Source: Bacteroidales bacterium (lineage in GTDB: Bacteria; Bacteroidota; Bacteroidia; Bacteroidales; UBA932). Taken from it: a stretch of DNA of 33,784 nt. Below, piece by piece: positions 3,476 through 30,423 of this stretch. The notes under the pieces were generated by a model that ran no database searches, had not been told where the DNA came from, and saw only the letters and a program-made list of their open reading frames with translations. Position 1 is the first letter of the stretch. Every line of letters begins with the position of its first letter. Both the position numbers and the translations under genes were made by a program. The stretch spans positions 1-33,784 of the forward strand of contig JAGAKH010000026.1 in assembly GCA_017625725.1 (NCBI GenBank), given 5' to 3'.

Positions 3476-3937
3476 ATGGAAAGAACATTAGTTATTCTTA
3501 AACCCGGCTGTCTTCAGCGAGGATTGGTCGGAGAGGTGATTTCAAGATTTGAAAAAAGGGGACTCAAACTTGTTGCAATGAAGATGGTTCAGCTTGATGA
3601 TGAGATTCTTAATGTGCATTATGCTCATCTCAAGGAGAAACCTTTCTTCCCATGGCTTAAGGATGGTATGAAGGCGGCTCCTGTTATCCTTTGCTGCTGG
3701 GAAGGATACGCCGCAGTTCAGGTTGTAAGGGATATGGCCGGAGCAACCAGAGCAAGCAAGGCTGTTCCTGGAACAATCCGTGGCGACTACAGTGTGAGTG
3801 CACAGGAAAATATCGTCCATACATCCGATTCTCTTGAGAATGCCAAGATCGAGCTTGACCGCTTCTTTGTAGAGTCGGATTACTGCGATTATCCTTCTCC
3901 TCTGAATCAGTACAAATATGCTCCTGACGAGATGTAA
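3476..3937 (+). CDS. ndk: Nucleoside diphosphate kinase
   Basis: Transfers the gamma-phosphate from ATP to nucleoside diphosphates through a phosphohistidine intermediate. The 153-residue protein has the family's N terminus (MERTLVILKPGCLQRG), the RASKAVPGTIRGDY segment and the active-site motif NIVHTSDS with catalytic His115. The common NxxHGSD motif appears here as HTSD, which from memory is also seen in other Bacteroidota. It is a soluble housekeeping enzyme. The start codon is 15 bases after arcA, implying one transcript, and a long hairpin follows at 3959. Confidence 0.96.
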   Translation: MERTLVILKPGCLQRGLVGEVISRFEKRGLKLVAMKMVQLDDEILNVHYAHLKEKPFFPWLKDGMKAAPVILCCWEGYAAVQVVRDMAGATRASKAVPGTIRGDYSVSAQENIVHTSDSLENAKIELDRFFVESDYCDYPSPLNQYKYAPDEM

Positions 3938-3958
3938 ATGTTTCTTAATATCTTTTAT

Positions 3959-3991
3959 GAAGGCTGCTGGACCATGGTTCCGGCAGCCTTC
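3959..3991 (+). terminator. Terminator of arcA-ndk
   Basis: GAAGGCTGCTGG pairs with CCGGCAGCCTTC (one G-U pair) around a 9-base loop. The tail GTAATTTTGTG is only moderately T-rich. Confidence 0.72.
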
Positions 3992-4025
3992 GTAATTTTG
4001 TGTTGTTAAAATTTTTCAAAAACTA

Positions 4026-4055
4026 TTGGTTTAAAGAAAAAAGAATTTAACTTTG
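4026..4055 (+). promoter_or_regulatory. Promoter of the first susCD operon
   Basis: TTG at 4026-4028 is followed after 19 bases by TAACTTTG at 4048-4055, a full match to the Bacteroidota -33/-7 pattern. The leader to the ATG at 4122 is about 60 bases, A/T-rich and without a strong Shine-Dalgarno sequence. Confidence 0.75.
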
Positions 4056-4121
4056 CTAAATATATGCATTTGTAAATATTACTAACCAAAATCATATTTA
4101 TTAACACTAACCCCATCTGAT

Positions 4122-7100
4122 ATGAGGAAATCACATTTAATCTCTATGTGCCTGACCTCTTTGTTCGGACTTGGTATTCTATTTAATGGGGGGGGGTATT
4201 TATGTAAATGCCTCTGAAGTTATTTCCAGCCAGAATGAGAAGGTTATTACGGGTGTGGTCAAGGATGCAAACGGAGAACCGGTAATCGGTGCCTCAGTCA
4301 TCCAGGACAAGACATCAAACGGTGTAATCACTGACGTTGATGGATCTTTCTCTTTAACTGTACCGGAAGGTGCGGAGCTTGTTGTTGCATGCCTGGGCTA
4401 TCAGGATGTAGTCATCAAGGTAGGAAAGCAGACTCACTATCCTATCGTTATGGAGGATTCTGCTGAATTTCTTGAAGAAGTAGTGGTTGTCGGTATGAAC
4501 AACCGTCAGACAAGAAGGTCCATTACCGGTGCCGTTTCAACAATTCAGACAAAGGAACTTGTTCAGAGTCCGGTTGCAAACATCTCCAATGCCCTTGCCG
4601 GCAAGCTTCCGGGACTTATCACAGTCCAGTCTTCTGGTGAGCCAGGAGCCGATGCTTCTGCACTTTACATCCGTGGTCTCGGTACATACGGATCCAGTGC
4701 ACCGCTCGTCGTAATCGACGGTCTTCCACGTAACAAGGCTGACTTTGATATGCTCGATCCTAATGAAATCGAGTCAATCACAATCCTGAAGGATGCTTCT
4801 TCATCATCTCTTTACGGTATCCAGGGTGCCAATGGTGTCGTTGTCGTAAGTACAAGACGAGGTGGCGGAAATGCGAAACCGAAGATTTCCTTCACAGTCC
4901 AGCAGGCAATGCAGCAGCCTATCCGTCTTCCTGAGACAATGAGCTCTTATCAGCAGGCATTGTATCAGAGAGCTACCGACTACAATGACGGTCAGCCTCT
5001 CCGTTATACAGAAGAAGTCCTCGAAATCATCAGGAGCGGTTCAGACCCTTACCAGTATCCTAATACAAACTGGTTCGACGTTGTCCTTAAGGATCATTCA
5101 TGGCAGCAGCAGTATAACATCAATATTTCCGGAACTGCAGGTAAGGACCATAGGGTGAATTACTTCATCTCCGGCAGTTATATCAATCAGGGAACACTCC
5201 TTAACCATGAGGATGTATTCTCGAAGAATTACGGTGTAAATTCAAAATACGACCGTTACAACTTCCGTTCGAACCTGGACGTCCAGGCAACCAAGAGACT
5301 CAACATCAGAATCGACCTTGCCGGCCGTCTTGAGACAAGAGTCGGACCAAGCGAAAGCTTCCCTTATGTCTTCCAGGTCATCACAAGCCGTAAGCCAGGT
5401 TCTCAGGCAATCTACAACCCTGACGGAACCCTTGCAGCAGGTAGTGCCCTTGAAATCCCTTATCAGAACAACCCTTACGGTGTCATCACGCAGAGCGGTT
5501 ATTACAAGAACGAGTCTCAGGTGATGTATGGTACTATTTCTGCAAAATATGACCTTGACTTCATCACTGAAGGACTTACAGTCCAGGGCTACTTCAGCTT
5601 CGAGAATACAAGTAACCTGAACCGTATATGGAGACAGTCATTCGAACAGTTCTGGTATCGTGGTCCGGATACTGATGGCAATCCAATATATCAGGACTAT
5701 ACTACCAAAGGACGTCTTGCTGCATCAACAGGATCATATGTAGAGCGTTATACCTATTTTGACGTACGTCTCAACTATGACAAGACTTTCGGCAAGCATC
5801 AGGTGAATGCACAGCTTCTCGGAAACAGAACCCTGAAGAACCTCCAGTATTCGGAGTATATGTATGCATATCAGGGAATCAGTGCCAGAGCAGCATATAA
5901 CTATGCTCAGAGGTACTTCCTTGAACTCAACCTCGGTTATAACGGTTCTGAGAACTTCCCTCCTGGCAGACGTTATGGATTATTCCCATCATTCTCAGCA
6001 GGTTGGGTACTCAGTGACGAGCCTTGGCTCAACTCACCTGACTGGCTCAAGATTCTTAAGATCCGTGGTTCATACGGTACGGTAGGTAATGACCAGATCG
6101 GTGGTGACCGCTTCCTCTTTATCACTGAGTTCGGCCCAGGTGGAACTCATGCCCATCCAGGAGCGGCAACTATCTATCCGAGCGGATATTATTTCGGTAC
6201 GACAAACGGCGGAACCCTTCCTGCAGGTGGACATAACGAAATCCGTGTAGGTAATGAGTACGTGACATGGGAAAAGGCCAAGAAGGCAAATATAGGTTTC
6301 GACCTTTCGCTCTTCCATAATAATGCAGTCAACCTTACATTTGACTACTTCTATGAAAGACGTGACAATATTCTTACAGCAGCTGGTAGTGTTCCTGATT
6401 ATGTGGGTATAGACAATGTTGCTCCACGTAACTCCGGTAAGGTCTTGAACCAAGGTCTTGAGGCCGAGCTCAGAATCCACAAGCAGATCAGCCGTGACTT
6501 CTCATTCTTCACAAACCTTCAGGTGACTTATGCAAAGAACAAGGTTCTCGAGAACGACCAGCCTACTCCTAAGTTCGCATATCAGGACCTCAGAGGTTAT
6601 GAAATCGGTTACTCTCTCGGCTACAAGTCCCTCGGTTATTTCCGTGATCAGGAGGAAATCGATAACAGCCCTAAGCAGAACCTCGGTCTTGCTCCTATCC
6701 CTGGTGACGTCAAGTATCAGGATACGAATGAAGACGGTATAGTAGACTCTGATGACCGTGTTCCTATCAAGTGCTTCTCTGTACCTACATTCACCGGTGG
6801 CCTTTCACTCGGTATCAACTGGAAGGGATTCGACTTCAGCATGATGTTCAGCGGTGCTACAGGCGGTAGTGCACGTCTCTGGGCATACGACAGCAGTATC
6901 ATCAACCTACAGAGGTGGACAGAAACCAACAAGGATGCCCTTCTTCCGATCGCACATACTTCAGCGAACAATGACGTGATAAGTGACTGGAACCTGATGT
7001 CCACTGATTATCTGAAGCTCAGAAATGTCGAGATCGGTTATACCATCCCTTCTCATCTTCTCCAGAGGATCAAGATCAGCAGTGCACGCGTCTATATTAA

Positions 7101-7227
7101 CGGACAGAACCTTGCTGTCTGGGATAAGATGTGGCTCAAGGACCGTGACCCTGAATCAGCAGGATCAGGTACTCTCCCATATCCGCTTCAGAGGATATTC
7201 AACATCGGACTTCGTTTTGATCTGTAA
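4122..7227 (+). CDS. SusC-like TonB-dependent transporter, frame interrupted at a G9 tract
   Basis: Outer-membrane TonB-dependent channel that imports oligosaccharides together with the SusD partner encoded next. After the leader come a carboxypeptidase-regulatory-like beta-sandwich (VITGVVKDANGEPVIGASV), the TonB-box region (LEEVVVVG), a plug with VVIDGLPR and ILKDASSSSLYGIQGANGVV, and a barrel ending in NIGLRFDL. There is no STN domain, so sigma/anti-sigma signalling is not expected. The natural start is the ATG at 4122, giving a signal peptide MRKSHLISMCLTSLFGLGIL. It runs into nine G residues at 4188-4196. With nine Gs this frame stops at 4215-4217 after 31 residues; with eight it continues as FNGGGIYVNASEV into the full transporter. 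Starts in the long frame (TTG 4171, ATG 4186) would lack an export signal. I read it as a phase-variable gene in the OFF register, or a homopolymer miscount. Confidence 0.88.
4188..4196 (+). repeat. Poly-G tract (G9) in the susC signal-peptide region
   Basis: Nine consecutive G residues follow AAT and precede TATTTATG. Eight Gs join the ATG at 4122 to the SusC frame; seven or nine lead to a stop within about ten codons. This is the longest G-run I found in the window. Confidence 0.9.
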
Positions 7228-7247: not shown

Positions 7248-8936
7248 ATGAAACGTAATCTATATATTTTAATTACTTCCGTAGTTCTTGCCGGTGCTGT
7301 TTCCTGTGAAGACTTCCTTGACAGGGCTCCCGGTGACAACATGACAAAGGAAGAACTTTTCTCGAACATCGAGACTGCAGAGCAGTATCTTGATAATGCA
7401 TACTGTTTCCTTCCGGATTTCCAGACCAATACAGAAGATCTGACCGGAAGATACAAGCTTGGTGATGCTACTGATGAAGGTGGTTTCCAGCAGGCGTCCG
7501 GATATGCATTCAGCCCATTTGATATCAACATCGGTAGCTGGAACCCAACCCAGATGCCTATGCTCCGTAACTGGAAAGATTATTATGGATGTATCAGACG
7601 TTGCAATAATTTCATTGAGAACTATAACCTTATCCCTGAAGACCTCAGTACCGGTGGTGCCAGCAACAGAAGAGAAAGGCTCCTTGGTGAGGCTTATGGT
7701 CTGAGAGGTTATTTCTACTTCCTTCTCTTCAAACAGTGGGGTGGCGTTCCTATCATCACATCTGTCCTTGATCCAGGTAATGTCGAGTCACTCAAAGGTA
7801 TCAAACGAGCTACTGCTGAGGAAACTCTTCAGCAGGTTCTCAATGATATGGATGAGGCAATGAAGTATCTTCCTGTAAAACATGACGATGCTAACTATGG
7901 CCGCTTTACTTCTTTGGTCGCTACAGTTGTCAAGTCTCAGGTAAAGCTCTACTGGGCAAGTAAATACTGGAACAGAGACAATGATCAGACCAGGTGGGAG
8001 GATGCCAAGGAAGCTTGCCGCGAGGCCCTCAATATGGCAGAGAAGAACGGTCATCTCCTTGCACTGAAATATTCTGATCTTTTCAATAAGGCAGGTATTC
8101 AGGCAGAGAACATCTGGACCAAGAATTCAGAGCATATGGAGTGCTATTGGTGGGATTTCTACGCAATGCCTCTCGGATACGGTGCGTTCAATGTAGATGG
8201 CCCTATTCAAGAACTTATTGATGATTTTGAAATGAAGGCGACAGGTAAGGTCCCTGTACTTGGATATACAACAGATAACAAGCAGATCATTGACGAGACT
8301 TCCGGATATGATCCGAAGAATCCATGGGACGGACGTGACGACCGTTTCTACTGCTGTATCCTTTATCATGGTGCCCAGCTTCAGGGCAGGGCCATCGATA
8401 TTTCCGAAAATGGAACGGACAACATCAACATCGGTTCAATCATCAGAACAAATTACTTTACTAATAAGTATCTTGACCAGAATCATAACCTTGTCACAAA
8501 TGCAAGCTGGACATACAGAAGGTTTGCAATCATGCGTACTGCTGAGCTTTATCTCAACTATGCAGAGGCAGCAAACGAGGTAGACGGTCCATCAAGCGTT
8601 GTTTATGAACTTGTGAACACAATCCGTCGTCGTGCCGGTCAGCCTGAACTACCTTCAGGTCTCAGTCAGGACCAAATGCGCGACAAGATACGTCAGGAGA
8701 GAAGAATCGAGCTCTGCTTCGAGAACCATCGTTTCTGGGATGTACGTCGCTGGATGATCGCAGAAGAGGTTGATAACGGACCAGTACACAGAGTTACTGT
8801 GGATGCTGCCGGAAATATTACATATCCTGTATTCCAGAACCGTGTATTCAATCCTGACAGACATTATCTCTTCCCTATACCTCAGCTTGAAATCGACAAG
8901 AACAATGCTCTTGAGCAGAATCCAGGCTGGAACTAG
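7248..8936 (+). CDS. SusD/RagB-like glycan-binding lipoprotein
   Basis: Surface lipoprotein that forms the lid of the SusC channel and binds glycan. The 562-residue protein has a lipoprotein signal with lipobox AGAVSC and Cys20, followed by EDFLD, an acidic surface-export-type tail. The N-terminal SusD-like domain shows the TPR-type helices (RRERLLGEAYGLRGYFYFLL, then WGGVPI) and the C-terminal RagB/SusD domain shows RTAELYLNYAEA, IRQERRIELCFENHRFWDVR and the ending LFPIPQLEIDKN...LEQNPGW typical of the family. It starts 20 bases after the susC stop, in the same operon. Ligand specificity cannot be read from sequence. Confidence 0.95.
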   Translation: MKRNLYILITSVVLAGAVSCEDFLDRAPGDNMTKEELFSNIETAEQYLDNAYCFLPDFQTNTEDLTGRYKLGDATDEGGFQQASGYAFSPFDINIGSWNPTQMPMLRNWKDYYGCIRRCNNFIENYNLIPEDLSTGGASNRRERLLGEAYGLRGYFYFLLFKQWGGVPIITSVLDPGNVESLKGIKRATAEETLQQVLNDMDEAMKYLPVKHDDANYGRFTSLVATVVKSQVKLYWASKYWNRDNDQTRWEDAKEACREALNMAEKNGHLLALKYSDLFNKAGIQAENIWTKNSEHMECYWWDFYAMPLGYGAFNVDGPIQELIDDFEMKATGKVPVLGYTTDNKQIIDETSGYDPKNPWDGRDDRFYCCILYHGAQLQGRAIDISENGTDNINIGSIIRTNYFTNKYLDQNHNLVTNASWTYRRFAIMRTAELYLNYAEAANEVDGPSSVVYELVNTIRRRAGQPELPSGLSQDQMRDKIRQERRIELCFENHRFWDVRRWMIAEEVDNGPVHRVTVDAAGNITYPVFQNRVFNPDRHYLFPIPQLEIDKNNALEQNPGWN

Positions 8937-24424: not shown

Positions 24425-25492
24425 TCAGATTCCGAATGAAATGCAGCTGGCGACTGCTCTTTCGATTGCGGTCTCTGAGGTTCCGGAGTCACTTGGCCAG
24501 TTTAGAAGCTTGCCTTCCAGTCCGATGATTGCGGATGATCCGCCTCCATCCAGATTCATGGCTTTGACGGCACCGTGCTCTATTAGTACACCTGCAAGTT
24601 CGCTTAATTTCAGTCCAGCTGAACCAAGCATACCTCTTCCGTCACACACTATCAGTATGACGCATCCGTCTTCGGTAAGGCCGAGTGCTGTGCGCGGAAC
24701 CCGGCTGAAGGCAGCTGTTCCTCCGCTGTCGAAACATTCCCTCCAATAGCTTTCAGTAGAAACGTCCTTTCCGTCAACTACCAGCATAGGGCCACCACCG
24801 ATGGCATTCTTCGGTTTCCATACTTTTGCTCCAGGAGTATCTGTTGTCGGTTCATCCGTCATGAATGTCTCTGTCTGTTCATTATTCTCGAGAGGAGAAG
24901 GAAAACTGTAGTGTACTCTTGAAGTCGGCTCACAGCAGAATACCCAGTCTATGGTGAAACTGCCGTCGTCCATCTGTCCGAATGCCGCTCTTACCGGATG
25001 AATCGAATGCTTGTAGTTTTCATCATTAGGCCAGTTCATGCTTCTTGGAGCGATTACATCGCAGAATCCGTTGGATATGATAAGGCTGACTGATGTGGAA
25101 CCGGCAAAATAGCCGGCGTTGCTTATTATATAAGGTGTGCCAAGATTCGTGTTGAAATTCTCGTATACGTACGATGGTTTACGTTTCGGTGTGTTCTTTA
25201 TGACATTGAAACGAAGCTCCGGATGGTTTTTGAAATCCATCCTTGCAAGGAAATACCTTGTAGTCTTTCCGTCCGAATGGTTGAAAGTATGCTCATTTAC
25301 AGTGATGCCTGCAGGATAAGACGGCACTTCCGGTTCCGGTTCTGGCTCTGGCTCTGGTTCCGGCTCCGGCTTTTCATCAGGAGTTTCAATAGTCGTGTTA
25401 TTGTCTTGATTATCTGATTGTTGTTTTTTCTCACAAGAGACAGCACCCATTATTAACGACAAGATGCAGATGTAAATCAGTTTTCTGTTCAT
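24425..25492 (-). CDS. Phosphodiester glycosidase (NAGPA-domain) lipoprotein
   Basis: Predicted lipoprotein of 355 residues from the ATG at 25492, lipobox MGAVSC with Cys20. A Glu-Pro repeat tether follows (KPEPEPEPEPEPEPEVP), encoded by six-base repeats at about 25330-25372. The remainder matches the phosphodiester glycosidase family (PF09992), whose eukaryotic member removes GlcNAc from GlcNAc-1-phosphate diesters. Typical landmarks are the early NAGYFAG, the middle AIGGGPMLVVDGK, SRVPRTALGLTEDG, and MNLDGGGSSAII. A TTG start nine codons upstream (25519) overlaps the promoter element and is rejected. The gene is divergent from the second susC and on the same strand as the GH97 operon. Cleavage of a sugar-1-phosphodiester in the target glycan is the natural inference. 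Confidence 0.88.
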   Translation of the reverse strand: MNRKLIYICILSLIMGAVSCEKKQQSDNQDNNTTIETPDEKPEPEPEPEPEPEPEVPSYPAGITVNEHTFNHSDGKTTRYFLARMDFKNHPELRFNVIKNTPKRKPSYVYENFNTNLGTPYIISNAGYFAGSTSVSLIISNGFCDVIAPRSMNWPNDENYKHSIHPVRAAFGQMDDGSFTIDWVFCCEPTSRVHYSFPSPLENNEQTETFMTDEPTTDTPGAKVWKPKNAIGGGPMLVVDGKDVSTESYWRECFDSGGTAAFSRVPRTALGLTEDGCVILIVCDGRGMLGSAGLKLSELAGVLIEHGAVKAMNLDGGGSSAIIGLEGKLLNWPSDSGTSETAIERAVASCISFGI

Positions 25493-25498
25493 GCTAAA

Positions 25499-25542
25499 TT
25501 TTTTAATAATCGTTAGCAAAATTATATATTATTATTAAAAAA
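25499..25542. repeat. 12-base inverted repeat in the divergent promoter region
   Basis: TTTTTTAATAAT (25499-25510) and ATTATTAAAAAA (25531-25542) are perfect inverted arms separated by 20 bases that contain the minus-strand -7 element. This may be an operator for the divergent genes. The arms are low-complexity A/T sequence. Confidence 0.5.
25517..25524 (-). promoter_or_regulatory. -7 element for the phosphodiester glycosidase gene
   Basis: The minus strand reads TAATTTTG, an exact TAnnTTTG match, 24 bases before the ATG at 25492. No clear -33 box is seen. Confidence 0.6.
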
Positions 25543-25547
25543 AGTTT

Positions 25548-25555
25548 TAATTTTG
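25548..25555 (+). promoter_or_regulatory. -7 element for the second susCD operon
   Basis: TAATTTTG matches TAnnTTTG, 29 bases before the ATG at 25585. A clear -33 box is absent, so an activator may be needed. The divergent -7 element lies only 23 bases away. Confidence 0.6.
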
Positions 25556-25584
25556 TGTTAATAATATCATTTAACTAAACCATT

Positions 25585-28500
25585 ATGAAGAGAGTCAAAT
25601 CATGGCATCTTGCTTCAGAGAAAAGTTTCAATAGAATCTTGATGGTTCTAGCTCTTTTCTTTTTAAGCATTTCATATGCTGGGGCTCAGTCCTTCAAAGT
25701 TACAGGAACTGTAACAAACAATCAGGGGGGGGCAGAGCCTGGCGTAGTAGTCTTTCTTGAAACCGACAATACGGTCGGTGCGATGACTGACACCGATGGC
25801 CGATATTCAATCGACCTCAAGGACAAGAATTCCACTCTGGTCTTTTCACTTCTGGGATATAAGACAGCAATAGTTCCGGTTAACGGACGTGCTGTTCTTA
25901 ATGTAGTCATGGAGCCGGACGCAACAGCTCTTGAAGAGGTTGTGGTTGTCGGTTATGGTGCCCAGAGAAAGCAGTTCGTTGTGGGATCTGTGAGTCAGGC
26001 AACCAGTAAAGATCTTCTCAAGGCACCGACTTCTGATGTTCAGAGCATGCTCACCGGACGTCTTGCCGGTATGACCAACATCCAGAAGACAGGTACTCCT
26101 GGAGAAGGTAACAACACAATGCTTGTACGTGGTCTTTCCACATTCAACAATTCAGGTCCTCTTGTAATCGTAGATGGTGTTCCGCGTACGATGAACAACA
26201 TCAATCCTAATGACATCGCGACCGTATCTATCCTGAAGGATGCAGCAACTGCAGCCATTTATGGTGTACAGGCTGCCAATGGTGTGGTCCTGATCACTAC
26301 CAAGTCAGGTCAGCAGGGAAAGGCTAACATTTCTTATGACGGTTCAGTAACATTCTCAACAAACACAGCTGTTCCCGATCTCATGAATGCCGAGCAGTAT
26401 ATCTACTGGCATAACAAGGCCAAGGAGATGGACGGGCAGGAACCATATTGGACTCCGGAGAAGATCCAGAAGATGAAGGATATGGGTGTCTATGGTGAAA
26501 CTGACTGGTTCGGACAGATCTTCGATGACTACGGAATGACTCATCAGCATACTGTCTCTGCATCCGGCGGAACAGACAAGGTGAAATATTATGCCAGCAT
26601 AGGTATGATGGATGAGGACGGTATCCTCCGTAATACTAATTACAGCAGATACAATGTCAGGGCATCCCTCGATGCTGAACTTGCCCGCAATCTGAAGTTC
26701 TATATCAATGTGGCTGGAAACTACAGCAACAGAATGTGGCCAGGTCTTAACTTCAAGACCCAGTCCGAGTTCTCTCCGATTACTCAGGCATATTATGCGG
26801 TGCCATGTGTGGCCTCTGAGTATCAGGGACTTCCGCTTGGATTTACGAATGGAACATATACCTATAACTCAGGTGCGGCACTTGATACAGGATATTCAAA
26901 CCAGGTGTCTTACAGAGGAGAGCTTTCATCAAGGCTCGAGTATGATTTCAAGGCCATTCCTTTCCTTAAGGGTCTGAAGGCTTCCGTATTCTTCGGCTAC
27001 AACTACCTTCACACTACGGACAGAAATTTCCTCGAAGCATATCAGATATATAAGTATGATCCGAAATCGATGACTGTCCTTCAGCAGACATCCCTCGGTA
27101 TTTCCGATACGAACTTCAATCGTTCTTCTTCTCTTGGCTGGAACAACATGCTCCGTCCACAGTTGAACTATGAAAGGGAGTTCGGAAAGCATAATGTTTC
27201 CGGTCTCTTCCTTTTCGAGAGGTATTATTCTTATGGCGAGACGATGACCGGATTCAAGAAAGGATTCTTCTCTGATTATCCGGTAGACATCTCGACCGGT
27301 ATGACAGACCAGCCGCCTTATGTGTCCGGATCCTTCAATCATGAAGGAATGAACAGTTTCGCAGGTCGTCTCAGCTATGCATATGCTAAGAAGTATCTTG
27401 CCGAGGTTACATTCCGTGCTGATGCAACATACAAATTCGCACCTGGTAAGAGATGGGGCTATTTCCCATCAGTCGCTTTGGGTTGGGTGCTTTCAGAGGA
27501 AAGTTTCCTTAAGGATGTAGATGCCATAGATTTCCTCAAGTTGAGGGCATCTGCCGGTATCCTTGGAAGTGACGATACTAATGCATTCCTTTATATGCAG
27601 ACATATCAGACTACCGGATCCACTTATTCCTATGTCCTTGACGGTGTGGCAAGTCCTGCATTCTATACATCAGGTTATGTGCATGACAATCTTACGTGGT
27701 CTACAACCAATACATATAATGTCGGTGTCGAACTCCGTGCATTCGATAACAGGTTGAGCTTTGAGTTCGACTGGTTCTATAAGTATACAAAGAACATACT
27801 TGAGTATGCCGGAACCGGCTCCTTCGCACCATCACTCGGTGGAAACAACCCATCATGGGAAAACTCAGGAGAGGTAGATAACAGAGGATTCGATATGACA
27901 ATCAATTGGGGTGATGCATTCGCAAACGGTTGGTCATACAATATCACGGGAATCGTAGGATGGTCAAGAAACAGGGTTCTCAAGAAGAGGATTTCCGACA
28001 ATCATCCTTCTTACAGAGCAGTTCTCGGAGAACCTATGGGCAGCATCTACGGATTCCATGCCCTCGGTCTCTTCCAGACTCAGGAGGAGGTAGACAACTA
28101 TCCTACTGCACCTTCAGGCTGGCTCGAACTCGGTGCCATCAAGTATGAAGACATAAACGGTGACGGTAAGATCGACTCCAATCATGACTATGTCAAGATC
28201 GGACGTTCTTCAATACCTGAGATGACCTTCTCCCTCAATGCTGAAGTTGCATGGAAGAACCTCAGTCTCAGCGTCCTTCTCCAGGGTGCGACACTTTGTA
28301 ACTATGCTCTTAACGGAGTATATAACAATGGTAACACAGACGGTACAATGTTTACACGTCAGTTCTATGGCGGCGGTAACTCGCTTCTTCACCTTGTAGA
28401 GAACTCATGGAGGCCGGACAATACTGATGCACGTTACCCACGTCTTGCAGCATCTACAAATGCAAACAATGCATGGGCATCATCATGGTGGATCATTGAC

Positions 28501-28725
28501 GGTTCGTATCTCCGTGTGAAGAATGTGCAGCTCAGTTATTCGCTTCCTGAAAAGCTCCTTAACGGAAAGACAGGCGGCATTGACGGAATCCGACTCTATC
28601 TTGCCGGTACCAACCTGTTCACATTCAGTGCTTACGAGTATCTTGACCCGGAGAACCCTGGTATCAACAACGGTTATTATCCTCAGCAGAGGACTTTCAG
28701 TTTAGGACTTAACCTTACCTTCTAA
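25585..28725 (+). CDS. SusC-like TonB-dependent transporter (second system)
   Basis: Outer-membrane TonB-dependent glycan importer of 1046 residues. It has a signal peptide ending ISYAGAQ, a regulatory-like beta-sandwich (VTGTVTNNQGGAEPGVVVFL), the TonB-box region LEEVVVVGYGAQRK, a plug with LVIVDGVPR and ILKDAATAAIYGVQAANGVV, and a beta barrel ending in TFSLGLNLTF. There is no STN domain. Residues Gln47-Gly48-Gly49-Ala50 are encoded across eight consecutive G bases. Loss of one G gives a TAG, and gain of one a TGA, within 13 codons, so this copy is ON but capable of slipping. It is followed after 12 bases by its susD partner and is divergent from the phosphodiester glycosidase gene. Confidence 0.96.
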   Translation: MKRVKSWHLASEKSFNRILMVLALFFLSISYAGAQSFKVTGTVTNNQGGAEPGVVVFLETDNTVGAMTDTDGRYSIDLKDKNSTLVFSLLGYKTAIVPVNGRAVLNVVMEPDATALEEVVVVGYGAQRKQFVVGSVSQATSKDLLKAPTSDVQSMLTGRLAGMTNIQKTGTPGEGNNTMLVRGLSTFNNSGPLVIVDGVPRTMNNINPNDIATVSILKDAATAAIYGVQAANGVVLITTKSGQQGKANISYDGSVTFSTNTAVPDLMNAEQYIYWHNKAKEMDGQEPYWTPEKIQKMKDMGVYGETDWFGQIFDDYGMTHQHTVSASGGTDKVKYYASIGMMDEDGILRNTNYSRYNVRASLDAELARNLKFYINVAGNYSNRMWPGLNFKTQSEFSPITQAYYAVPCVASEYQGLPLGFTNGTYTYNSGAALDTGYSNQVSYRGELSSRLEYDFKAIPFLKGLKASVFFGYNYLHTTDRNFLEAYQIYKYDPKSMTVLQQTSLGISDTNFNRSSSLGWNNMLRPQLNYEREFGKHNVSGLFLFERYYSYGETMTGFKKGFFSDYPVDISTGMTDQPPYVSGSFNHEGMNSFAGRLSYAYAKKYLAEVTFRADATYKFAPGKRWGYFPSVALGWVLSEESFLKDVDAIDFLKLRASAGILGSDDTNAFLYMQTYQTTGSTYSYVLDGVASPAFYTSGYVHDNLTWSTTNTYNVGVELRAFDNRLSFEFDWFYKYTKNILEYAGTGSFAPSLGGNNPSWENSGEVDNRGFDMTINWGDAFANGWSYNITGIVGWSRNRVLKKRISDNHPSYRAVLGEPMGSIYGFHALGLFQTQEEVDNYPTAPSGWLELGAIKYEDINGDGKIDSNHDYVKIGRSSIPEMTFSLNAEVAWKNLSLSVLLQGATLCNYALNGVYNNGNTDGTMFTRQFYGGGNSLLHLVENSWRPDNTDARYPRLAASTNANNAWASSWWIIDGSYLRVKNVQLSYSLPEKLLNGKTGGIDGIRLYLAGTNLFTFSAYEYLDPENPGINNGYYPQQRTFSLGLNLTF
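25725..25732 (+). repeat. Poly-G tract (G8) within the second susC
   Basis: Eight consecutive G bases span codons 47-50, in frame. GGG is otherwise an uncommon glycine codon in these genes, where GGT, GGA and GGC dominate. Any one-base change truncates the protein soon after the signal peptide. Confidence 0.9.
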
Positions 28726-28737
28726 CAGACAGCGGAT

Positions 28738-30423
28738 ATGAAAAGAATTATAATCTATATATCATTGATTATCGGTCTTGCCGCTACATTCAATTCATGT
28801 GATGTACTTGACCTTCAGCCGACCGACAGATATTCTGAAGGTGTGGTATGGGGATCAGAGGATGCGGTAGACAGCTATGTGATTGGTTTCTATGCATTCA
28901 TGAAGGATGCGACCGAAATCTTCAATTACAATATGGGTGCCTTTACTGATGCGTACACCGACATCATGAAGAGCAGCTCTTGGGACCAGTACAATCACCC
29001 GTACAACAAGGTTCTCCTTCAGGAGACAGCCTTCAGCGATGTGAATGCAGGAGCATTCGAATGCTGGGGTGACTGCTACAGTGAAATCAGACAGGATAAC
29101 GAATTCCTTCGTGACGCTCCAAAATACATTGAGAAGTTCGGTGAGGATTTCATCAACACCAGAATCGCAGAAATCAAGGTTGTAAGGGCATTCGCGTACT
29201 TCAAACTTATGAGGGTCTATGGCTATAATGACACCAAATACTCTCAGATAAAGAATGGTGGAGTTGTTCTCAGAACGGAACTTGACGGTCCGGAGCAGAA
29301 TGACAAACCACGTTCAAACTGGAATGATTCATGGGATTTCATCATCAATGAACTCAAGTCGGCGGCCGATGTACTTCCTGAAACATGGGGTGGTACCAAG
29401 AGATTTACAAAGGCTGCAGTCTACGGACTTCTTTCACGTGTAGGTCTCTATGCTGAAAGATGGGACGTAGTGATCGAAGCAGCAGAGAAATGCCAGGAAC
29501 TTGGTTGTGCCCTGTCTCCAGATTATGCATCACTTTTCACAGACAGCAGCAATCCTGAACACCTCTTCGCCGTTGACTTCATGGCAAATAAACTCACTCA
29601 TAGAGCAGATGTATTCTTCCGCCCTATAGGTGACAGCAAGTTCCACAGCAACAATGCAGTTTATGGAGCGATATGCCCTACCAGCGAACTTGTTGACAGC
29701 TATGAAATGGCTGACGGAACCGACTTTGACTGGACCAAGCATTCGGCAGCTCCTTATAAGGACCGTGAGCCTCGTTTCTATGCATCAATCCTTTATAATG
29801 GTGCAAGATGGGAAGGCCGTCTTCTCGAGACATATGCCGGCGGAGCTGACGGAATCGCCAAGTTCACTACATCCGGAACTGCCGGAACCACAACAACCGG
29901 TTATTATTTCAGAAAATTCATTACCGAATCCGACTTTACATGGGAAAGTGGCGGAAGTTCGCACTTTGCAACCTTCATCAGATATGCTGAGGTACTTCTC
30001 AATTATGCAGAGGCACTTGCAGAGCAGAATTGGGGCAAGAATAAGGAGACTGCTCTTGCAGCATTGAATCAGGTCCGTGACAGAGTAGGTCTTCCTAAAA
30101 AGGATGCATCGACCCTTGACGATTTCCGCAAGATCCTCAGAAAGGAAAGAATGGTCGAACTTGCCGGTGAAGGCTTCCGTTATTGGGACATCAGAAGATG
30201 GCGCATCGGAGAGGAAGTCCTCTTCGGAAAGCAGGCTCACGGATGCTGGATTACACCATTGGTTACAGCTGACGCACCTGAAGCGGGATCGTATGATTAC
30301 AAACAGGTAAGCGTTGATGCCGACATCAACAGATGTTTCTTTGAAAGATATTATTCATTCTCCATCCCTATCGAAGAGCGTTCCAACAACAATCTTCTCG
30401 GAGACAACAATCCAGGATGGTAA
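28738..30423 (+). CDS. SusD/RagB-like glycan-binding lipoprotein (second system)
   Basis: Surface lipoprotein partner of the second SusC, 561 residues. The lipobox is ATFNSC with Cys21, followed by DVLDLQPTDRYSE, the usual SusD N terminus. The helical SusD domain includes IAEIKVVRAFAYFKLMRVYG; the C-terminal part includes RYAEVLLNYAEALAEQ, ILRKERMVELAGEGFRYWDI and the family-typical ending SFSIPIEERSNNNLLGDNNPGW (shown here only as a landmark split around PIEERSNN). It is only distantly related to the first SusD, so the two systems are not a recent duplication. It starts 12 bases after susC. Confidence 0.95.
   Translation: MKRIIIYISLIIGLAATFNSCDVLDLQPTDRYSEGVVWGSEDAVDSYVIGFYAFMKDATEIFNYNMGAFTDAYTDIMKSSSWDQYNHPYNKVLLQETAFSDVNAGAFECWGDCYSEIRQDNEFLRDAPKYIEKFGEDFINTRIAEIKVVRAFAYFKLMRVYGYNDTKYSQIKNGGVVLRTELDGPEQNDKPRSNWNDSWDFIINELKSAADVLPETWGGTKRFTKAAVYGLLSRVGLYAERWDVVIEAAEKCQELGCALSPDYASLFTDSSNPEHLFAVDFMANKLTHRADVFFRPIGDSKFHSNNAVYGAICPTSELVDSYEMADGTDFDWTKHSAAPYKDREPRFYASILYNGARWEGRLLETYAGGADGIAKFTTSGTAGTTTTGYYFRKFITESDFTWESGGSSHFATFIRYAEVLLNYAEALAEQNWGKNKETALAALNQVRDRVGLPKKDASTLDDFRKILRKERMVELAGEGFRYWDIRRWRIGEEVLFGKQAHGCWITPLVTADAPEAGSYDYKQVSVDADINRCFFERYYSFSIPIEERSNNNLLGDNNPGW

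Follow-up and report, generated by a model that had tools for sequence, protein, structure and literature searches.

We analysed a 33,784-nucleotide stretch of DNA from a Bacteroidales bacterium (contig JAGAKH010000026.1, positions 1 to 33,784; hereafter the window) and found that its first SusC gene, which encodes a TonB-dependent transporter, carries a run of nine Gs (G9; other runs are named in the same way) in its leader. This tract is very probably a contingency switch that works by slipped-strand changes in length, with the assembled allele in the OFF state. An earlier interpretation made from the letters alone (the sequence-only reading) had proposed a phase-variable OFF allele here, and comparison supported it, since the pattern recurs on the sense strand at other SusC genes of the source genome and its genus. 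The elements of the locus are as follows:

4048..4055, + strand: putative −7 promoter element TAACTTTG, preceded by an ATTG at a distance of 19 nt (consensus TTTG / TAnnTTTG, as given in an extract of PMC7366714)
4122..4187, + strand: leader MRKSHLISMCLTSLFGLGILFN, a signal peptide by hydrophobicity, not in the SusC frame in the assembled allele
4188..4196, + strand: G9 tract, the putative switch
4215..4217, + strand: TGA stop reached from the ATG at 4122 with nine Gs
4186..7227, + strand: intact SusC frame (TIGR04056, Pfam Plug and CarbopepD_reg_2)
7248..8936, + strand: intact SusD partner lipoprotein (SusD_RagB, SusD-like_3)

The G9 tract occupies codons 23-25 of the leader frame opened by the ATG at 4122. 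The frame runs through 22 codons, which give the hydrophobic leader that the sequence-only reading had taken for a signal peptide, and continues as GGG GGG GGG TAT TTA TGT AAA TGC CTC TGA, so that the earlier claim of an out-of-frame leader ending at 4215 was exact. With eight Gs, the leader and SusC form a single frame, while seven Gs lead to another early stop, again as had been stated; as far as the reading frame goes, a change of one unit toggles the gene between intact and truncated. Downstream of the tract, the SusC frame holds 1009 stop-free codons. The nearest in-frame ATG of the assembled allele (4186) overlaps the tract and yields no signal peptide; a leaderless SusC started there is possible but was not taken as functional, since the signal peptide would be missing.

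A scan for E. coli-type promoters found none at the window SusC. An invertible promoter was ruled out for the two regions scanned (3700-4400 and 25300-25900), neither of which has suitable inverted repeats flanking a promoter segment: the sole inverted repeat in 3700-4400 (3955-3995, 7-nt loop) is a terminator-like hairpin, and 25300-25900 has AT-rich pairs only, 5-20 nt apart. No invertible segment is visible in these regions, and the earlier suggestion of a homopolymer switch distinct from the inversion known for Bacteroidales SusC genes is supported.

The window contains 335 G or C runs of three bases, 33 of four and four of five, none of six or seven, and one each of eight and nine, and the two long runs are far off the length decay of the rest. 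In both cases, the run is sense and falls within the 5' part of a SusC gene. The codon GGG is rare in the window, making up 12 of 476 glycine codons in 13 other genes and none of the 93 in the window SusC after the tract.

In order to compare the tract across species, we searched for homologues of the window SusC with one genome per species; the search yielded 14 loci from the named genomes, and 14 strongly matching genomes, the source genome included, out of 400 of the genus. Six alleles (the window and five orthologues from other species) have a leader type in common, and all six carry a G-run at the same place. The run is G9 in the window and in L059, and G8 in L057, L058, L060 and L062, while the length needed for frame is 8 in the window, L057 and L062, 7 or 10 in L058, and 9 in L059 and L060. 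The assembled alleles of L057, L059 and L062 are in frame, and those of the window, L058 and L060 are out of frame (3 vs 3); the tract is thus conserved between species, whether the allele is ON or OFF. On this comparison, the G-run is kept while the flanks and the frame register have drifted. The sequence-only reading had named related genomes without any G-run at this site as a result that would speak against it; for the true orthologues this did not happen, since a G8 or G9 is present in all five that share the leader, and two of the five are out of frame.

In one remoter homologue with a leader of another type, L031 (G055 C30, 496-504; 65% identical), a G9 just past the signal peptide puts the gene out of frame; the same site in L030, the homologue nearest to it, consists of ordinary glycine and valine codons. 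All four tract-free homologues scanned with Pfam have an STN domain (above the curated cut-off in L029, L061 and L065, under it in L063), and L030 and L067 have, by eye, a short plain leader. As several tract-free homologues bear the STN domain instead, random switching may replace signal-dependent control.

The window SusC scored 885.5 bits against TIGR04056, over the curated cut-off, with Plug and CarbopepD_reg_2 found by Pfam and a SusD gene adjoining. Compared with L057 (90.6% amino-acid identity), it showed a nonsynonymous divergence (dN) of 0.063 and a synonymous divergence (dS) of 1.10, giving a dN/dS of ~0.06, with 41% divergence at third positions. At this dN/dS, the gene is, as far as the pair compared can tell, under strong purifying selection and not decaying. 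The remark in the sequence-only reading that the undamaged rest of the gene argues against decay was thus borne out by the stop-free codons, the dN/dS and the intact SusD. An early-decay pseudogene, out of frame as assembled through a chance frameshift at a mutable run, is therefore extremely improbable, since the five orthologues have also retained the run despite its rare codon. The purifying selection on a gene with an OFF allele present would also suit readthrough of that allele by transcriptional or ribosomal slippage, in which case the tract would set a level of expression and not an on/off state. That long homopolymers can cause slippage is generally established; nothing in the data requires it, and in-frame alleles are the majority (see below), so we consider this explanation very unlikely.

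As a control, SusC genes were sampled regardless of tracts, giving 58 loci (29 from the source genome and 29 from the genus) in which frame and strand were set by the SusC profile. In six loci, a sense run of at least seven Gs fell within 220 bases of the start of the frame, and in one it lay elsewhere in the gene; no C-run was found inside the 58 genes. Five source-genome loci cut at the 5' end were left out, and among the remaining 53 genes (24 from the source genome, 29 from the genus) an in-frame hydrophobic leader was absent in three of the six with a tract of at least eight Gs near the start, compared to none of the 47 without a tract (Fisher P 0.0009). The three were the window SusC, a source-genome gene on contig C119, and L031; the window SusC prompted the look, and without it the figure is two of five.

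The source genome (G000) has 15 tracts of at least eight Gs (seven G8, eight G9), of which three are sense tracts at SusC starts (two in the window, one on C119), compared to 0.019 expected. The C119 gene (L110, C119:31101-31109), the third such SusC of this genome, has a G9 and is out of frame. Leaders closely like that of L110 by eye occur in other genomes (L166, L169, L171, L173 and L180), each in frame with G8. When G000 was counted together with three further genomes (G029, G052 and G139), 19 of 107 tracts of at least eight Gs lay no more than 120 bases from a SusC model start, compared to 0.15 expected, and all 19 were sense and none antisense, a strong sense-strand placement (nine in G029, six in G139, three in G000, one in G052). 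A gene body contained one tract, and another four, all sense, were located 241-293 bases upstream. This count used 109 SusC genes, namely 24 of the 30 SusC profile matches in G000 and 85 from the other three genomes; matches over the cut-off with a profile start no later than position 23 were counted, and truncated, split and sub-threshold matches were dropped.

Of 48 SusC tracts collected, 47 were evaluated: 38 were in frame with a leader, six were out of frame, and three (L184, L196 and L199) were in frame without a clear leader. With L197 (out of frame when read by hand) and L031 added, eight of 49 tracts at or near the 5' end of a SusC gene, from 22 genomes, were out of frame, in six genomes. 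Since the 40 fetched regions were mostly picked by eye as leader- or promoter-like, the fraction in frame should not be read as an estimate for the population. Among the 30 loci returned from pattern matches in the genus, seven were SusC genes, six of them with a tract near the SusC start; the leader pattern itself (ATGA...G8) gave 284 positions compared to 117 for reversed controls in 151 genomes, overlapping positions being counted, and this hit count alone is weak evidence. A strict limit to the genus does not quite hold, as one of 30 order-level loci returned from other genera is a SusC with a tract (L237, from G209), its leader carrying a G11 that puts it out of frame. In another SusC gene (L215, G029 C4:30003-30011), a mid-gene G9 divides the coding sequence into two frames.

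These counts bear on the possibility that an error in assembly or consensus produced the ninth G and that the true allele never leaves the frame. The window belongs, as contig C6, to a 2.32 Mb metagenome-assembled genome (MAG) of the Candidatus Cryptobacteroides type that is fragmented (129 contigs) and 79.7% complete, homopolymers are error-prone, one G fewer restores the frame, and in-frame alleles dominate the genus (38/47), so a miscall of the window allele is possible. However, out-of-frame tracts are present in other assemblies (L058, L060, L183, L197, L198 and L031) as well as in L110 of the source genome, and the loss of leaders among the 53 control genes is restricted to those with tracts. 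Even if the window allele were miscalled, such an error could not account for the conserved placement of tracts on the sense strand, and we consider it unlikely overall.

As noted, the window SusC has its G-run in the leader, and none between its two promoter elements. Several other tracts of the source genome sit between TTTG and TATATTTG; TTTG and TAnnTTTG are the two elements of the Bacteroidetes sigma-ABfr promoter according to an extract of PMC7366714. Matches to the pattern TTTG-N(4-14)-G8-N(0-12)-TAnnTTTG, 15 in all, occurred in 10 of 151 genus genomes, and the reversed control gave none; four of the 15 came from G000, the genome that suggested the pattern. The spacing from the −33 to the −7 element was 19-22 in 13 of the 15 matches and 28 and 34 in the others. 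A frame of at least 90 codons starts 12-192 bases downstream in 12 of them, and 10 of these frames begin, by eye, with a signal or lipoprotein leader, one being a SusC. What seems to be the same gene has a promoter tract in two species (L116 in G000, L113 in G138). Among 117 order-level genomes outside the genus, the pattern gave two matches and two controls, showing no enrichment. Tracts were also found in linkers behind a signal peptide or behind an STN-like stretch.

These other placements matter for the possibility that the run was selected for a role other than slippage, such as making the signal peptide end in glycines, or serving as an mRNA element or a site for a small RNA (sRNA), with out-of-frame alleles as unavoidable damage. 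Gly-Gly-Ala-like motifs do end many leaders, and in Helicobacter pylori a variable homopolymeric G-repeat is said, going by the title of a study, to be read by an sRNA. Glycine alone, however, needs no GGG, a codon used for so few of the window's glycines; the tracts occur in promoter spacers and in linkers as well as in leaders; and the frame register is not conserved. A role of this kind is thus hardly probable.

Several further sites with tracts were seen. In the source genome, a cluster of large surface lipoprotein genes (L105, C25:1356, 7713 and 17742) has three tracts: two of the genes are preceded at 38-39 bases by a G9 and a G8, respectively, in near-identical surroundings, and another gene has a G8 inside it; the one gene scanned is a DUF6562 protein. 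A 6.4 kb contig (L104, C13:5209 and 6126) has two promoter-spacer G9 tracts, and its other genes are phage-like by eye, including a tape-measure-like frame. An in-frame G8 lies within a LacI-family regulator gene upstream of a SusC/SusD pair (L109:397-404, C115), which, from this position, is a possible switched regulator. In another genome, the leader of a hybrid two-component regulator (L163, G053 C65; Reg_prop, HisKA, HATPase_c and Response_reg) ends in a G8 and is in frame.

A number of results weigh against the tract being a phase-variable switch. A dinucleotide shuffle of the window reached at least the observed five G7 positions in 11 of 100 cases, so that it does not make the runs rare, but this control is weaker because it preserves GG pairs and not codon use. 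Nine of the 10 remoter homologues, with other leaders, have no run of at least seven Gs in the gene, and in-frame alleles predominate among the evaluated tracts. The three genomes counted with G000 were picked for their many tract hits and not at random, and G052 has only its one tract at a SusC start (P 0.03). The tracts in the four genomes are short (G8-G10), near the low end of the lengths that switch fast in Neisseria. We infer high-rate length variation within a population from the comparison between species, and no length change was itself seen. In addition, mutS is present in the source genome and over the cut-off in 58 of 61 genomes, for which reason a loss of mismatch repair was rejected as the cause of the long runs. 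Since the tracts are short and mutS is present, the switching rate may be modest, and some other bacteria with mononucleotide switches likewise retain mismatch repair.

If the G9 tract is a contingency switch, replication would occasionally add or remove one G from the run. With eight Gs, the signal peptide would read into SusC and the gene would be ON, while nine or seven Gs would bring a stop within a few codons and turn it OFF, presumably leaving the cell with no transporter. The window switch would be one of a set in the genus that acts on SusC leaders by translational switching, and a parallel set between the −33 and −7 promoter elements, mostly of surface-protein genes, would change transcription and so tune expression. 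Each cell would then express a random subset of its outer-membrane transporters, which may serve as a bet-hedge over glycan supply, phage or immune attack. It is probable that the genus Cryptobacteroides has a genus-wide poly-G phasome that covers SusC, further surface proteins and one or more hybrid two-component regulators through both leader-frameshift and promoter-spacer modes.

Phase variation of SusC/SusD in Bacteroides fragilis via site-specific DNA inversion was reportedly described by Nakayama-Imaohji in 2009, going by the title. The two cases are alike as stochastic switching of SusC/SusD outer-membrane systems in Bacteroidales and differ in that a homopolymer is involved here, with no inverted repeats seen flanking a promoter segment. 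In Neisseria, the haemoglobin receptors hmbR and hpuA have a poly-G in the reading frame and were ON in 59.2% and 64.7% of tracts, respectively, their state tracking an 'effective tract length' owing to changes in and around the tract (PMC3786947, in extract). As far as this extract goes, the likeness lies in an outer-membrane uptake system with an in-frame poly-G that is turned on or off by frame. In contrast to hmbR and hpuA, the present case concerns another phylum and another transporter class (SusC with SusD), the tract lies in or just past the signal peptide, several paralogous loci occur per genome, and it is known from the sequence of the tracts, with no length variation yet seen. In Neisseria fetA and porA, a homopolymer between the −35 and −10 elements alters their spacing and expression (extract of PMC5320596), which the G-runs between TTTG and TAnnTTTG resemble; here, however, the promoter is of the Bacteroidetes sigma-ABfr type with the spacing mostly at 19-22, and an effect on transcription is putative. 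The capsule switch of Akkermansia is mainly an inverton, with long mononucleotide repeats named as a possible extra mechanism (extract of PMC13343947); it likewise concerns surface switching in a gut commensal, but in another phylum and gene, and the element here is a homopolymer. No homopolymer switching of SusC was reported in the titles and abstract openings of the top-ranked open-licence literature, and no publication on Cryptobacteroides with phase variation was found in that literature. The class of mechanism is known from Neisseria, and a form of it acting on the leaders and promoters of Bacteroidales SusC genes looks new.

The second SusC/SusD pair of the window has its own tract, and its elements are as follows:

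25585..28725, + strand: second SusC of the window, in frame via its own G8
25725..25732, + strand: G8 tract at codons 47-50 of this SusC, close to where its CarbopepD_reg domain (residues 39-121) begins
28738..30423, + strand: SusD partner of the second SusC

Besides the two SusC/SusD pairs, the window encodes two DUF4838 proteins, CBM9-like, DUF5107 and metallophosphoesterase proteins, a CE2/GDSL esterase, and DUF5009, GDPD, GH97, NAGPA and GHL10 proteins. Given this content, both switches would act on the uptake of glycans or phosphodiester-glycans. Relatives of the source genome include Candidatus Cryptobacteroides avicola and other uncultured Bacteroidales.

SusC/SusD systems are surface-exposed and decide which glycans a gut Bacteroidales cell takes up. 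Annotation pipelines may label OFF alleles as pseudogenes or leaderless genes, and, if the switch is real, the presence of a SusC gene in a MAG would not tell whether it is expressed. Each strain would be a mixture of cells with different diets and perhaps different phage receptors. A poly-G phasome of this kind would be a Neisseria-like contingency strategy for glycan uptake in uncultured gut Bacteroidales and a counterpart to the invertons that Bacteroides uses.
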